Shown here: positions 1,575 through 14,585 of the stretch, in pieces
How the letters are laid out: each line of letters starts with the position of its first letter
Position numbering within the stretch: the stretch's first letter is position 1
Virus record (IMG/VR): IMGVR_UViG_3300027974_000202
Span: 1-20,368 of that record
Length of the DNA: 20,368 bases
Direction: 5' to 3' (one strand)
From: a virus
Notes under the pieces: model-generated
Database searches by the model: none
Told to the model about the DNA's origin: nothing
The model's input: the letters and a program-made list of their open reading frames with translations, nothing else
Translations under genes and position numbers: made by a program

Positions 1575-1622
1575 CACGGCGCAGCCGCTGCGGTAGACGC
1601 TACAGTTTGTACGAAGTACAAA
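1571..1622. repeat. Cluster of short perfect palindromes downstream of the small basic gene
   Basis: Starting at the stop codon of the upstream gene, GTAGC (1571-1575) pairs with GCTAC (1599-1603) and encloses CGCAG-CCG-CTGCG (1580-1592). It is followed directly by TTTGTAC-GAA-GTACAAA (1606-1622), a 7-bp stem with a GAA triloop. No long T tract follows within a few bases, although an A5-T9 stretch begins near 1635. It may act as a terminator or RNA-processing element between the gp46 transcript and the GIY-YIG gene. The rest of 1623-1738 is AT-rich and shows nothing further to me. Confidence 0.5.
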
Positions 1623-1738
1623 GCTGCGGCACAAAAATTTTTTTTCTCCTTTTGGTACCAAAATATTTCTGTCACTGCCAAAATATTCACAATATTCAAG
1701 ACTGCTGCAGAGAAAATCATGTCACAGTAAGTACCAGT

Positions 1739-2170
1739 ATGCCATGGATGTATCAAGACCAACCCATAGATTCTCTGCCGGAAGGCACAGTGGGATTTGT
1801 GTATCTGATCACCAATCTTGTCACAGGTCGCAAGTATGTGGGCAAGAAGCTGGCACAGTTCAAAAAATCTCGTCCGCCTCTCAAAGGTCGCAGCAACAGA
1901 CGTCGCAGTCTGGTGGAGAGTGATTGGAGAGACTATTGGGGCAGCAACGATGTGCTGATGATGGATGTGCAGCAGCAGGGCGAGGATCAGTTCACCCGAC
2001 AAATACTCTACATCTGTCGCAGTCGCGGCGTGATGGGCTATTTGGAGGCTCTGGAACAGTTTGAACGCAGAGTGCTGGAGTCGGATGAATACTACAATGG
2101 CATCATCAATGTGAGAATAGGCAGCAGCAATCTGCTGCGAGAAGAATTAAAAAGGCTCAAGGCAAAATGA
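1739..2170 (+). CDS. GIY-YIG superfamily nuclease-like protein
   Basis: 143 residues from the ATG at 1739. The frame is open further upstream to 1607, but that extension runs through the palindrome cluster and gives an unlikely Cys/Phe-rich peptide, so I chose the internal ATG; the ATG at 1748 is also possible. The two signature strands are visible: GFVYLIT (19-25, the GIY element) and KYVGKK (32-37, the YIG element). Next come an Arg/Lys-rich stretch (42-56), SDWRDYWGSN (61-70), a glutamate-rich helix around LEALEQFE (102-109) that could supply the metal-binding Glu, and N120 in EYYNG. The layout matches small single-domain GIY-YIG proteins of T4-like phages. Without a separate DNA-binding domain there is no evidence that it is a homing enzyme; a role in DNA processing or host DNA degradation is inference. 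No strong ribosome site is seen. Confidence 0.75.
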   Translation: MPWMYQDQPIDSLPEGTVGFVYLITNLVTGRKYVGKKLAQFKKSRPPLKGRSNRRRSLVESDWRDYWGSNDVLMMDVQQQGEDQFTRQILYICRSRGVMGYLEALEQFERRVLESDEYYNGIINVRIGSSNLLREELKRLKAK

Positions 2171-3384: not shown

Positions 3385-3570
3385 TTAAAAGAATGGTAAT
3401 CCGCTTTTTTTGGTGGTTTCCAGATTGTCCTTGACGATTTTGCTGATGATTTCACGATCCTCCACAGCAAATGCAAACACATCATCCACTGTGACACTGC
3501 CACGCATGTACCAGCACAATCGCATCAATTCCAAGCGAAAGTTTTTGGTTTCATTCTCTAGGATATCCAC
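3385..3570 (-). CDS. Small gp51-like tail/hub assembly protein, probably expressed by -1 frameshift
   Basis: The 61 residues from a GTG at 3570 include LMRLCWYMRGSVTVDD and end in EIISKIVKDNLETTKKSGLPFF. This resembles, from memory, the small protein placed next to gp26 in marine T4-like phages and labelled gp51 or hub assembly factor. The start is poor: GTG with AAAGGAA directly against it, too close to serve as a ribosome site, and no ATG. The same frame is open upstream to 3615 and beyond, into the end of gp26, adding RIKILAKSLPEILKE in front. This suggests that the protein is made as an extension of gp26 by a -1 frameshift rather than on its own. Its role would be in tail or baseplate hub assembly, acting in the cytoplasm; the exact role is inference. 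Confidence 0.6.
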   Translation of the reverse strand: MDILENETKNFRLELMRLCWYMRGSVTVDDVFAFAVEDREIISKIVKDNLETTKKSGLPFF

Positions 3571-3608
3571 TTCCTTTAAAATTTCCGGCAGAGACTTGGC
3601 TAGGATCT

Positions 3609-4478
3609 TTATGCGAAAAAATTTGATTGATCAAAAGTCACAGGCACTTCAAACTCTTTGGGAGCTCCTGCCTTGATGTCTTCTTCTGTGCTGAGCACTC
3701 TCAGTGGCTTGATAGCAAATCTGTTGCGATTGCTGGTCACATGATCCACTATGCTGGTGTAAAAATTCTTGTCAGCCTTTTCGATGAACTCTGCAATGAA
3801 CTTGGGATCAGTCACTGTTTGACCTTCCACTTCCACGCTGCTCACTGTGTTGGCCACCAGTCTGATGGTGATCTCTGTGAGCTTCCTAAAGCTCTGATGA
3901 AACATGTTCACTTTGGTCTGTTCATCCAATTTGTCATCATTCACCACATTGAAAATTCTTTGTTCTTCAAATGTTTTGATGGCACCTTCGGTGAATTCTT
4001 TGTAGTTGAGCGGTTTCACTGTGATGCGCACTCCATCCACTGTGAGTTGTTCTTCAAACTTGGCCAGCAACAGATCATCCAACACTGTGCGTAGGTCCAT
4101 GGTGTAATCTTTCTTGATGGTGGTGTTGGGCACAGTGATATTGATGTCCAGCTTTTCACCATAGGTGGCCAATCTGATGGCAATCAGCACAGCATCTATG
4201 TCAATGCTGGGCATGAACCAAGCATTCTTGATGTTGGGCACACAGCTTTGTATCACATCCACAGTGGCCTGACCATTCATCAGTGCATCCGGAGTTTTGA
4301 AAGTCAACTCATCCTTGGCAGTCATGGCATACACTGCCAATTCACCTGTGACTGGCATGTCCAATGCGCCTGCAGGATAGTATTTGCCACGGCTGGGCAG
4401 TCTCAGATAGTTTTTGGGCTGTCTAAAATACTTCTGTAAAGGATTATTAACAGCTGATGGGTTTGTATTTTCTGGCAT
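3609..4478 (-). CDS. 26: T4 gp26-like baseplate hub / tail assembly protein
   Basis: 289 residues. The N-terminal half carries the conserved core of the T4 baseplate protein family (gp26 type): YFRQPKNYLRLPSRGKYYP (17-35), VTGELAVYAMTAKDE (43-57), then the most conserved block, TPDALMNGQATVDVIQSCVP (62-81), followed by DIDAVLIAIRLATYGE. The C-terminal half is helical and less conserved. The start is well supported by an ACGGAGG ribosome site 5 bases upstream of the ATG, with a perfect late promoter box 54 bases upstream. The gene is divergent from the probable tape measure gene. Its 3' end carries a T6C slippery run one codon before the stop, leading into the gp51-like frame. It has been annotated as a baseplate hub subunit. 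Pairing with a frameshifted extension beside the tape measure gene suggests it may instead act as a tail assembly chaperone; that is inference. Confidence 0.85.
   Translation of the reverse strand: MPENTNPSAVNNPLQKYFRQPKNYLRLPSRGKYYPAGALDMPVTGELAVYAMTAKDELTFKTPDALMNGQATVDVIQSCVPNIKNAWFMPSIDIDAVLIAIRLATYGEKLDINITVPNTTIKKDYTMDLRTVLDDLLLAKFEEQLTVDGVRITVKPLNYKEFTEGAIKTFEEQRIFNVVNDDKLDEQTKVNMFHQSFRKLTEITIRLVANTVSSVEVEGQTVTDPKFIAEFIEKADKNFYTSIVDHVTSNRNRFAIKPLRVLSTEEDIKAGAPKEFEVPVTFDQSNFFA
3615..3621 (-). promoter_or_regulatory. Candidate programmed -1 ribosomal frameshift site (T TTT TTC)
   Basis: On the minus strand the last codons of gp26 are TCA AAT TTT TTC GCA TAA. The heptamer T TTT TTC is in the exact X XXY YYZ register, so both ribosomal tRNAs can re-pair after slipping back one base. 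The -1 frame then reads TTT TTT CGC ATA AAG and stays open to the TAA at 3385-3387. The predicted products are 289 aa (unshifted) and 364 aa (288 residues of gp26 plus 76). I see no convincing downstream stem-loop or upstream stimulatory ribosome site. Confidence 0.6.
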
Positions 4479-4489
4479 TATTACCTCCG

Positions 4490-4497
4490 TATAAATA
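4490..4497 (+). promoter_or_regulatory. T4-type late promoter, perfect TATAAATA
   Basis: Exact match to the T4 late -10 element, reading rightwards towards the tape measure gene, whose ATG is 69 bases further on. The predicted start of transcription is about 4503. It lies within the leader of the divergent gp26 transcript. Confidence 0.7.
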
Positions 4498-4531: not shown

Positions 4532-4539
4532 TATTTATA
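4532..4539 (-). promoter_or_regulatory. T4-type late promoter, perfect TATAAATA on the minus strand
   Basis: TATTTATA on the plus strand reads TATAAATA leftwards, 54 bases upstream of the gp26-like ATG, and should drive the whole gp26 to small-peptide operon. The predicted start is about 4526. It faces the rightward late promoter at 4490-4497, so the two transcripts would overlap at their 5' ends. Confidence 0.7.
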
Positions 4540-4565: not shown

Positions 4566-6740
4566 ATGGCAGATGAAGTAAAAATAAAAGCTCCTGGATC
4601 GGATTTGGACGATGCTGTGCTGACAAATGCTGCCACAGAAGCCACTCTGAAAAAATTGGTGGATGCATTGGGCGGCAGAGGTTCCGGCACTGGAGCCAAA
4701 GTGGCTGACACTGCTAAAAAGTCAGCCAAAGGGTTGGAAGATCTGCGCAAACAATCCAAAAATACCGAAAATCAATTTGAAAAATTACAGAACCGAAGCA
4801 AGGTGTTGTCGGAAGGCATCAAGGATTTTGGTCATTCACTGATGGTGACTGGTCGCAAATTTGGCGACTTGGTACAGCCGTTGGCTTCAGTGATGAGCAA
4901 ACTCAATCCCAGCATGGCATTGTTCTATGGCAGCATATTGGCCTTGGTGAACGAAGTAGATCGTCAAGTGGACGTGTTCAGAGAGCTCAGTCAACAAGGC
5001 GCTGATTTTGGTGCAGGTATATTTGGTTCTCGTATGGCAGCCATTGAAGCTGGATTGAGTCTGGATCTTTTCAAAGAACAGGTGTTGGCCAACACTGGCA
5101 CATTTGGCTTGTTGGGCGGCAGTGTGAGTCGAGGTGTGAAAGTGTTCACCAACGTCAGCAGAAATATTCAAAGAGATTTCCAACCCACATTGAGCAAATT
5201 GGGGTTCACCATGCTGGAAACTTCAGATTATATCACAGATTATTTGGAAATACAAACCAGTCTAGGCAAAGCTCAGCAGATGAGTCAAGAAGATCTCACA
5301 GACGGCAGCAAAGATTATCTTCTGCAGTTGGACATGTTGAGCAGAGTCACAGGACAGAGCAGAAAACAACTCAGCGAAGAACTCAAACGTCAAGGACAGG
5401 ATCTCAAACTGAAATCGTTGATGGCCACCATGGACAAAGACGCCCAAGCCAATCTACAAGCAATTGTGGCAGGACTGGGAAATGTAGATCCCAAATTAAA
5501 ATCGGCCATTGAAGAAATGGTAGTCACAGGAGGCGCTCCTGTGAGTGAGTTTGGAAGAATGCTGGCCAGCACCTCCCCAGAATTGGTGAATCTAGCAGCA
5601 GGAGTACGCAATGGTTCTGTGAGTTCCGCAGAATTTGCAGCAGGCATGAGAAGAGCTGCTGCCGGAGCAAATGCTAATAGAGAATCTCTACAAGGGTTAG
5701 CCACTGCAGCTGCCATCACAGGCAATGACATGTATCTGGCGCAGGCGTCATTGTTGAGTTTGACCGAATATCAAAACGGTGCAGCAGAAGCCACCAAAGA
5801 ACAAATGAAAGCACAACAAGATGCCACCAAAGCAGTGACCAACTTTGACAGTCAAATGCAAAAATTTAGAAACGCTCTTATCAACTTGATATCTCCAGCA
5901 CTGGAAGCAGTTGGATTTGGATTATCTGTCATGTCTGAGTTCATCACTGCTGTCACAATGCCTTTCAGCTATCTTGGAAAACAATTGGATAAAATTAATA
6001 TTGATTTTGGTAAATTTGGACAGGCATTAAAAATAGCTCTAGGCACATTGTTGCTGTATGGCATGGCACGCGGCAGTTCAGCAATTATAAAAGGTGGCAT
6101 GAATATGGGCAGCAAGGTCCTGGGCATGGGATCTAATCTAATGTCCGGCAGCACTGCAGCAGCACCTGCAGCAGCAGCAGGCAAAACAGCAGGCTCAGGC
6201 GTAGCCGGCAAAATGCTCAGTGCTGGTGGTGCAGTGGCATCTGCCAAAGCCATAGGAATACTATCTTTGGCAGTAGTTGGCATAGGTGCAGCACTGGCTG
6301 GAGCCACATGGCTCATGGGAGGCGCTCTGGAAAAATTGGGCACAGGATTGGGCAAAGTGGCAGATGTGGATGGTGACAGATTAAAAAGTGTGGGCGAAGG
6401 AGTCAAAGAACTGGCCAGTGCCATGGCGGTATTTGGCAGCACTGGTGGTTTTGGTCAGATCAAAGACATCAACATAGAATCATTTGCCAAAAACATCAAT
6501 GCCACATTGGATTCACTTGACAAAGGTAAAATAGACAGCTATACTGAAGCATTAAACAGTCTGGGAGACTCTTTTGCTAAGGTACAAAACAATATGAGCA
6601 GCACAGTGTCAGCCTCAGGAAAAACTTCAGCTGACAAGCTGGAAGAGTTAAATATGACTATGAAGCAAGTTCTTTATGTGCTAGAAGGCAGCAAAAGATA
6701 TCAAAGAGACACTGCTACAGCAGTTGGAGAAATTACATAA
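4566..6740 (+). CDS. Probable tail tape measure protein (gp29 position/type)
   Basis: 724 residues. The N-terminus is acidic and Ala/Gly-rich. Charged helix with coiled-coil character follows at about 50-90, then a hydrophobic stretch at 115-129 (NPSMALFYGSILALV) and a long helical middle. Near the C-terminus there are two more hydrophobic segments, about 487-512 and 559-587, separated by a low-complexity Ala/Gly/Ser linker. Great length, helical repeats and internal hydrophobic segments without a signal peptide are typical of tape measure proteins, which set tail length and line the tail tube. Its position beside gp26/gp51-like genes and directly upstream of the portal supports a tail role. 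No ribosome site is seen before the ATG, but a perfect late promoter lies 69 bases upstream. A different large structural protein is possible. Confidence 0.65.
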   Translation: MADEVKIKAPGSDLDDAVLTNAATEATLKKLVDALGGRGSGTGAKVADTAKKSAKGLEDLRKQSKNTENQFEKLQNRSKVLSEGIKDFGHSLMVTGRKFGDLVQPLASVMSKLNPSMALFYGSILALVNEVDRQVDVFRELSQQGADFGAGIFGSRMAAIEAGLSLDLFKEQVLANTGTFGLLGGSVSRGVKVFTNVSRNIQRDFQPTLSKLGFTMLETSDYITDYLEIQTSLGKAQQMSQEDLTDGSKDYLLQLDMLSRVTGQSRKQLSEELKRQGQDLKLKSLMATMDKDAQANLQAIVAGLGNVDPKLKSAIEEMVVTGGAPVSEFGRMLASTSPELVNLAAGVRNGSVSSAEFAAGMRRAAAGANANRESLQGLATAAAITGNDMYLAQASLLSLTEYQNGAAEATKEQMKAQQDATKAVTNFDSQMQKFRNALINLISPALEAVGFGLSVMSEFITAVTMPFSYLGKQLDKINIDFGKFGQALKIALGTLLLYGMARGSSAIIKGGMNMGSKVLGMGSNLMSGSTAAAPAAAAGKTAGSGVAGKMLSAGGAVASAKAIGILSLAVVGIGAALAGATWLMGGALEKLGTGLGKVADVDGDRLKSVGEGVKELASAMAVFGSTGGFGQIKDINIESFAKNINATLDSLDKGKIDSYTEALNSLGDSFAKVQNNMSSTVSASGKTSADKLEELNMTMKQVLYVLEGSKRYQRDTATAVGEIT

Positions 6741-13560: not shown

Positions 13561-13755
13561 ATGAAAACATTATTATCATTGGCAGCATTGCTGTTGACAG
13601 TTGGTTGCTCCAACATATCCAGTCCAAGAGTGGAATTTGGTATGAAGTGTGTGATGACTGGAGACAAAATTGCTTACAGCTATGTTTGGGTGTATGACAA
13701 ACACATTGGTTTACCAGCCACAGCTGAAACATGTTCTGCTCTGAAAAAAAATTAA
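13561..13755 (+). CDS. Small lipoprotein
   Basis: 64 residues. Short N-terminus MKT, a hydrophobic signal core (LLSLAALLLTV) and a lipobox-like LTVGC with the acceptor cysteine at 16. The -3 residue is Thr, a less common but tolerated lipobox. The mature part would be 49 residues, with C30 and C58 able to form a disulfide. It has no further membrane segment, so it should be anchored in the outer or inner membrane by lipid. Candidate roles are superinfection exclusion or an outer-membrane spanin; the sequence does not decide, and it is not Pro-rich as many spanins are. No ribosome site precedes the ATG. Its 3' end overlaps the first 25 bases of hemB in another frame, indicating co-expression. 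Confidence 0.75.
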   Translation: MKTLLSLAALLLTVGCSNISSPRVEFGMKCVMTGDKIAYSYVWVYDKHIGLPATAETCSALKKN

Positions 13756-14585
13756 AAAATACTATCAAACTCATTCAACCCATATTTGTGAATGACACAC
13801 ACCAATCTTATGATTCAGGATTGGGAGAACACAATCAAAACTATTGTGTGACGGATGCTGTGCAAAGAATTCGCACAGATATTTCTTTGGGACAACAGAA
13901 TTTTTTATTGTTCGTTACCACAAAAAACAAATCAGATCAGCCCAATTGGCAGTCACATCAACACATAGCTCAACAGATCAAAACAACATTTGGTGATCAA
14001 ATATACTTGATTGCTGATGTTTGTTTGTGTGGTGTTAGAACAGATGGTCATTGCTGTGTGCCTGATGATGCTGTGTTAACACAAAAACATTTGGGTGAAT
14101 TGGCACAAGCATATCTCACAGCAGGTGTGGATTGTGTGGCACCCAGTGACATGCAACCATTCACAGTGGCCACTATAAAATCCATCACTGACCGACCAGT
14201 GATGAGTTATTCCACCAAGTTTCGCAGTGCTTTGTATGCACCTTTTAGATTGGCAGTGGACAGCACGCCCAACACAGAACGTTGGTATCAATTGGATGTG
14301 CGGGATCGTGATGCTGCTGTGAAAAGTTCTATCAATTATTCAAGTCAAGGTGCAGATTTTTTAATGGTTAAACCAGGCATGAGCAGCATTGATTTGATCA
14401 AGCCCATCATGGATGCCACTGGTAAACCTGTGGGAGTGTATCAAACTTCAGGAGAATGGGTGGCCATACAATCCAGCACAGTGAAGGATAAATTGTTGCA
14501 GGAAAGCATGTGGGTATTCATCAGAGCAGGTGCAGATTTTATGATATCATATGGGGCAAGACTGCTGCAAAAATCACTTAAATAA
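13731..14585 (+). CDS. hemB: Delta-aminolevulinic acid dehydratase (porphobilinogen synthase, HemB)
   Basis: Condenses two 5-aminolevulinate molecules into porphobilinogen, the second common step of tetrapyrrole synthesis; cytosolic. Family motifs in order: zinc site IADVCLCGVRTDGHC with C98, C100 and C108 in the classic C-x-C-x7-C spacing; VDCVAPSDM (133-141); MSYSTKFRSALYAPFR (158-173) with the first Schiff-base lysine K163; WYQLD (185-189); GADFLMVKPG (207-216) with the second Schiff-base lysine K214; and VGVYQTSGEW (234-243). All key catalytic residues are present. At 284 residues it is shorter than cellular HemB (about 320-340): the N-terminal arm is reduced and about 10 residues are missing between the zinc site and K163. 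The start at 13731 overlaps the lipoprotein gene, suggesting translational coupling, and the next gene follows after 4 bases. It sits in a moron-like cassette with its own promoter between the capsid and virion genes. Confidence 0.95.
   Translation: MFCSEKKLKNTIKLIQPIFVNDTHQSYDSGLGEHNQNYCVTDAVQRIRTDISLGQQNFLLFVTTKNKSDQPNWQSHQHIAQQIKTTFGDQIYLIADVCLCGVRTDGHCCVPDDAVLTQKHLGELAQAYLTAGVDCVAPSDMQPFTVATIKSITDRPVMSYSTKFRSALYAPFRLAVDSTPNTERWYQLDVRDRDAAVKSSINYSSQGADFLMVKPGMSSIDLIKPIMDATGKPVGVYQTSGEWVAIQSSTVKDKLLQESMWVFIRAGADFMISYGARLLQKSLK

Follow-up and report, generated by a model that had tools for sequence, protein, structure and literature searches.

In phages lambda (G/GT) and P2 (E/E'), a -1 frameshift close to the stop codon of the first frame gives rise to a major short product and a minor extended one; in lambda, the slippery heptamer is GGGAAAG and the tape-measure gene lies downstream. 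A review published in 2016 described the G-T frameshift as widely conserved, with T4 as the exception (PMC5009743). The T4-like chaperone genes were identified by Vladimirov, Gautam & Davidson in 2022 (Virology 566:9-15, doi 10.1016/j.virol.2021.11.003), a study to which later articles attribute the observation of a separate short gene and a fused long gene in some T4-like phages (PMC10885494) and of poly-T slippery sequences in the TAC-N genes of T4-like phages (PMC12846349).

Our window, that is, the whole stretch of 20,368 nucleotides of the IMG/VR virus record IMGVR_UViG_3300027974_000202 that was analysed, contains a locus from which, very probably, a short and a long version of a T4-superfamily tail assembly chaperone are made by way of a -1 slip at T TTT TTC. 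As in lambda and P2, the shift would take place near the frame-0 stop, with the short product predominating and the extended one in the minority; the likeness to G/GT is one of arrangement. The novelty implied by the original prediction does not stand, since the 2022 study, as cited in the later articles, had already described a two-form chaperone made by frameshifting in other T4-like phages. With the systems so described, the window shares short and long chaperone forms and a poly-T slippery sequence, but its putative tape-measure gene is divergent, not downstream, and its family has a downstream hairpin that is absent from the window's own phage. The features of the locus are the following:

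3385 to 3387, minus strand: stop codon TAA of the -1 frame (read in the sequence)
3388 to 3615, minus strand: -1 frame extension (predicted long form, TAC-C), 76 codons, the first being CGC (Arg)
3609 to 3611, minus strand: frame-0 stop codon TAA, one codon (GCA) 3' of the heptamer (read in the sequence)
3609 to 4478, minus strand: gp26-like gene, predicted frame-0 short (TAC-N) product of 289 aa (PF12322, phrog_150)
3615 to 3621, minus strand: slippery heptamer T TTT TTC in the canonical -1 frameshift register (invariant in 72 of 72 relatives)
4483 to 4488, minus strand: Shine-Dalgarno sequence GGAGGT of gp26 (read in the sequence GGAGGTAATAATG)
4490 to 4497, plus strand: candidate T4-type late promoter motif TATAAATA for the divergent 724-aa gene (motif scan)
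4532 to 4539, minus strand: candidate T4-type late promoter motif TATAAATA for gp26 and the fusion (motif scan)
4566 to 6740, plus strand: divergent 724-aa protein, putative tape measure (synteny)

The 289-aa gp26-like ORF matches the T4_baseplate family PF12322 (E=3.8e-11, 43.5 bits for a curated cut-off of 24.5) and phrog_150 (E=3.8e-14) in profile searches, and has a strong ribosome site (GGAGGTAATAATG). Its 3' end reads TCA AAT TTT TTC GCA TAA, with the heptamer in register one codon before the stop, exactly as originally predicted. In the -1 frame, a TGA stop is found three codons 5' of the heptamer, and the frame is then open from 3630 to the TAA at 3387-3385 (minus strand). It thereby crosses the junction and provides the 76 codons after the heptamer that bring the predicted fusion to 364 aa, also in agreement with the prediction. 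The translated -1 frame reads FF-RIKILAKSLPEILKEV...LPFF. It has no ATG at the junction: candidate starts appear only from extension codon 15 (a GTG) onwards, with the first ATG at codon 30, so that neither would yield the whole conserved segment. A short and an extended form sharing one start is the gene structure that a TAC-N/TAC-NC pair would have.

Because the heptamer TTTTTTC is not rare in the window (13 occurrences for 8.3 +/- 2.7 expected), a lone T TTT TTC proves little there, and it is its conservation in related sequences that makes the case for a frameshift. A first scan of IMG/VR, in which one of the search patterns was the junction peptide TFDQSNFF, retrieved 80 loci with the heptamer. 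A second scan, for which the query was restricted to gp26 residues 1-254 and the junction left out, found the heptamer kept in register in 47 of 47 distinct relatives with a readable junction. Bias from the TFDQSNFF pattern was considered and discarded, the result being the same in this second scan. Pooling both scans with the window and four named jumbo phages gave 72 representatives at <95% identity. Aligning their junctions, the check proposed in the original prediction, revealed the two Phe codons to be TTT and then TTC in the same register in all 72, preceded by AAT in each of the 60 sequences that have Asn at that position. In the same genes, TTC represents 291 of 1185 Phe codons (25%), and in each of the 45 other conserved columns with two-fold degeneracy both codons occur, neither of them exceeding 95%. 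An in-frame X XXY YYZ heptamer ahead of the frame-0 stop, as expected of a frameshift site, is thus conserved in these relatives (72/72; 47/47).

A -1 frame conserved as protein and constant in length (76 codons in nearly all relatives), and devoid of a start of its own, is likewise expected of such a site. The frame-0 codon after TTC is GCA, GGA, GCG, GTA, GCC, GGC, GAA, GTC, or GAG in 71 of the 72 sequences; the residue that it encodes varies (Ala, Gly, Val, or Glu) and its first base is G in those 71. Read in the -1 frame, an Arg codon (CGN) stands directly 3' of the heptamer in 71 of 72, upstream of any possible start codon, including the sole plausible restart codon. This restart codon, the next one in the -1 frame, is ATA in 47 sequences, CTA in eight, GTA in seven, ATG in seven, and another codon in three, so that in 62 of 72 it is ATA, CTA, or GTA and not a start. 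In two relatives (L145 and L153), a -1 stop lies directly against the 5' side of the T run. Given the upstream Arg codon, the mostly non-start codon after it, and the stops of L145 and L153, neither independent initiation nor coupled restart is a good explanation in general. An independent start for the -1 frame was also searched for and rejected: the first start codons are scattered over extension codons 1-36.

Translational coupling, in which the small frame would be a separate protein produced by restart at the overlapping AUA/AUG (ATAA/ATGA), is in our opinion highly improbable. It can account for the ATG found at the restart position in seven relatives, for the ATGA overlaps of Atu_ph07 and Phosso, and for the TAATG of 121Q, but not for the prevalence of ATA, CTA, and GTA at that position, the conserved Arg codon upstream of it, or the invariance of the slippery codons. 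The combination that the original prediction had named as evidence against a frameshift, namely relatives in which the small gene has an ATG and ribosome site of its own and the T6C run is not conserved, was not found, the T6C run being invariant and the junction ATG restricted to those 7 of 72. We consider just as improbable a transcriptional slippage by which RNA polymerase, stuttering on the T6 run, would shift the frame in a minority of mRNAs: a homopolymer run is present, and reaches T8 in HTVC008M, but T6 is short for polymerase slippage, and such a mechanism predicts neither the invariant C at the Z position nor a hairpin at ribosomal spacing. The possibility that there is no shift at all, the run merely encoding a conserved Asn-Phe-Phe and the -1 frame being a decayed gene, is practically negligible, as Phe-Phe is indeed conserved as protein in frame 0 but the third bases are invariant and the -1 frame is protein-conserved with constant length.

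The comparative evidence consequently gives strong support to programmed -1 frameshifting at the gp26 junction, which would yield short and long products in the manner of lambda G/GT and, judging from sequence conservation, is almost certain. The site and the selective constraint acting on it can be read from the alignments; that ribosomes slip there, and how often, and that gp26 and the fusion act as chaperones is inferred, the latter from synteny and homology. In the mechanism that we propose, the majority of ribosomes would terminate at 3609 and release the 289-aa gp26-like protein (TAC-N), and a minority would slip one base back at T TTT TTC, with the P-site tRNA re-pairing from UUU to UUU and the A-site tRNA-Phe from UUC to UUU. 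Slipped ribosomes would then read CGC and produce the 364-aa TAC-NC with its 76-residue, presumably helical, tail. If the parallel with lambda G/GT holds, the part common to both forms would cover the tape-measure protein (which is probably the divergent 724-aa product), tube subunits would be brought in by the rare tail, and both forms would depart before tail completion. In seven relatives (L027, L048, L053, L142, L144, L081, and L082), the -1-frame ATG overlaps the gp26 stop (ATGA), and a free small protein may therefore be made there in addition to the fusion.

In many relatives, a hairpin of up to 12 bp begins 5 nt after the heptamer (AGGATCTT...GAGATCCT). In 67 sequences, the fixed-register pairs amount to 586 of 804, compared with 463 +/- 11 after redrawing synonymous codons (maximum 500 in 2000 redraws), a count made on related, non-independent sequences and for a helix first noticed in the same data. 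P-SSM2 has a comparable hairpin, for which the last five bases of the folded string did not come from the record and are outside the stem. RNAalifold did not retrieve a single consensus fold for all relatives because clades differ, and the signal appears only in the fixed-register pair count. In the window, we detected no downstream hairpin beyond shuffles (fold z = +1.66; synonymous-recoding z = +0.33), and its closest relatives are also devoid of it; the efficiency of frameshifting in this phage may therefore be low. A downstream stimulatory structure (at 5-9 nt) is not obligatory at every -1 frameshift site. Neither the hairpin nor the divergent gene arrangement was found described in the literature searched, and a hairpin that follows the heptamer in many relatives and has been lost here is possibly new. 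A comparison of hairpin-bearing and hairpin-less lineages could serve as a natural experiment on what determines the proportion of the two forms.

The original prediction also considered the -1 frame to be gp51-like, which holds, at the level of sequence, for the C-terminal segment of T4 gp51 only, not for the whole protein, and only through intermediates. In profile-profile comparisons, the window's extension family is linked to the extensions of KVP40, cyanophages, and related phages with a probability of 77% and a score of 28.8 (15.2 at best in 100 column shuffles; the initial Phe-Phe shared by both profiles adds slightly to the score), and this KVP40/cyanophage set in turn to the T4 gp51 C-terminus with a probability of 94% and a score of 36.8 (16.3 at best in 100 shuffles). 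Direct comparisons gave no such signal: phrog_634, which corresponds to the T4 gp51 C-terminal segment, had no direct profile match with the window's extension family, T4 gp51 was not detected with the window's extension (hhalign probability 0.3%), and the fusion did not match T4 gp51 or gp26 by direct hhalign. Full-length matches to PF12322 were obtained for both T4 gp26 (8.8e-64) and T4 gp51 (3.9e-52), which are therefore short and long paralogues, not the two halves of one fusion. T4 gp51 consists of the common domain plus an extra C-terminal segment, and only its C-terminal ~50 aa correspond to the -1 frame; the KVP40 record likens the small gene to 40 residues at the T4 gp51 C-terminus. 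The proposal that the T4 gp26/gp51 pair is a counterpart of the frameshifted chaperones can thus be kept in the sense of short and long PF12322 forms and abandoned in that of fusion halves. Full-length PF12322 matches and the homologous C-terminal tail of gp51 bring T4 close to the window, whereas T4 has two separate, divergent genes and the window one frameshifted gene.

Junctions were also compared more broadly. Atu_ph07, Phosso, PA5oct, and 121Q carry a run of T TTT TTC or T TTT TTT in the -1 register at the same place, the predicted junction residues of PA5oct being Phe-Phe-Gln instead of Phe-Phe-Arg; among named phages gathered by PF12322 and phrog_634 searches, P-SSM2, S-PM2, KVP40, RaK2, phiW-14, and Aeh1 have T TTT TTC, and the pelagiphage HTVC008M (with its T8 run) and phiM12 have T TTT TTT, all in the -1 register. 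In T4 and CP220, two PF12322 genes are found in place of the frameshift junction. A frameshift with an invariant heptamer would thus be present across most T4-superfamily members tested, with the T4 genes 26 and 51 as an unlinked paralogous substitute. The abstract of the 2022 work is said to name T4 genes 26 and 51 and to report that several T4-like groups have retained the frameshift. Our result on breadth agrees with that study (Vladimirov et al. 2022), insofar as later articles convey its content. KVP40 and the cyanophages P-SSM2 and S-PM2, with their gp26 and short "gp51", resemble the window in having T TTT TTC in the -1 register but their tails, of ~55-60 aa, are ~20 aa shorter, and their long gene is directly downstream and collinear, in contrast with the divergent one of the window. 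It had been observed that cyanophage gp51 seemingly lacks ~200 N-terminal residues and that Aeh1 seemingly lacks gp51 altogether (PMC3037559), a puzzle that is explained if what has been called "gp51" in cyanophages is no more than a tail added to gp26 by frameshifting, which Aeh1 has too. The Aeh1 gp51-type tail (L210) is in the -1 frame after GAT TTT TTC GAC TGA. The Salmonella phage Vi01 (L204, Ackermannviridae) has GAA ATT TTC ATT TAA and a -1 tail without the canonical heptamer. Tentatively, and with slightly more doubt than confidence, we suggest that a hairpin-stimulated T TTT TTC frameshift was ancestral to the T4 superfamily as a whole (cyano-, pelagi-, vibrio-, and jumbo phages), that T4 and CP220 replaced it by separate short and long genes, that in the window's clade the hairpin disappeared and the heptamer persisted, and that in the window's lineage the putative tape-measure gene came to lie on a divergent transcript under a late promoter of its own.

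The neighbouring 724-aa protein, also advanced as the tape measure in the original prediction, is a putative one on the grounds of its synteny, its length, and the virion detection of its PA5oct counterpart; it has no match in the T4 tape-measure family. Its place between gp26 and the portal gene is kept in 121Q, PA5oct, and Phosso, and ESI-MS/MS detection is recorded for the PA5oct counterpart. In the PA5oct record, neighbouring structural genes carry the note "ESI-MS/MS" and the gp26 counterpart does not; a chaperone would be absent from the finished virion, but a missing note is weak evidence of that. The T4 tape-measure profile PF25671 matched neither the 724-aa protein nor any relative, a result that is uninformative because the profile also misses KVP40 and the cyanophages. 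The motif TATAAATA has only two copies in the window (0.31 expected). Both are located in the 87-bp gap between gp26 and the 724-aa gene, one per strand and each upstream of one gene, which is where T4-type late promoters would be expected. The AlphaFold model of gp26 (pLDDT 85.9) matches T4-like baseplate hub assembly proteins in BFVD, where the nearest annotated tail assembly chaperone is a weak hit from phage Kitkat (E=0.096); the extension is predicted to be helical (pLDDT 87.7), and fold searches in the PDB with the gp26 model and the extension yielded no match. Synteny, the ESI-MS/MS record, and the models are compatible with the chaperone and tape-measure roles without proving either. 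Four uncharacterised BFVD proteins of 500-690 aa (A0A191ZCG4, A0A0K2QR08, J7KJQ2, and A0A1L7N169), from the large Erwinia phages Special G and phiEaH2 and Ralstonia phages RSF1 and RP12, also match the gp26 model by fold (E from 7.6e-7 to 2.5e-5) and, judging from these models, are possible long-form chaperones.

For annotation, the short frame is best entered as a joined CDS, neither as a separate gene nor omitted. Elsewhere in the window, just downstream of the gp23 capsid gene, a near full-length gene (13731-14585, plus strand) encodes HemB, the delta-aminolevulinic acid dehydratase (PF00490, E=2e-55; NF006762, 178 bits, below its equivalog cut-off of 297 bits), and is a possible auxiliary gene for haem biosynthesis. 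An ORF at 1607-2170 (plus strand) contains a GIY-YIG-like motif (VYLITN...YVGKK), recognised by eye.
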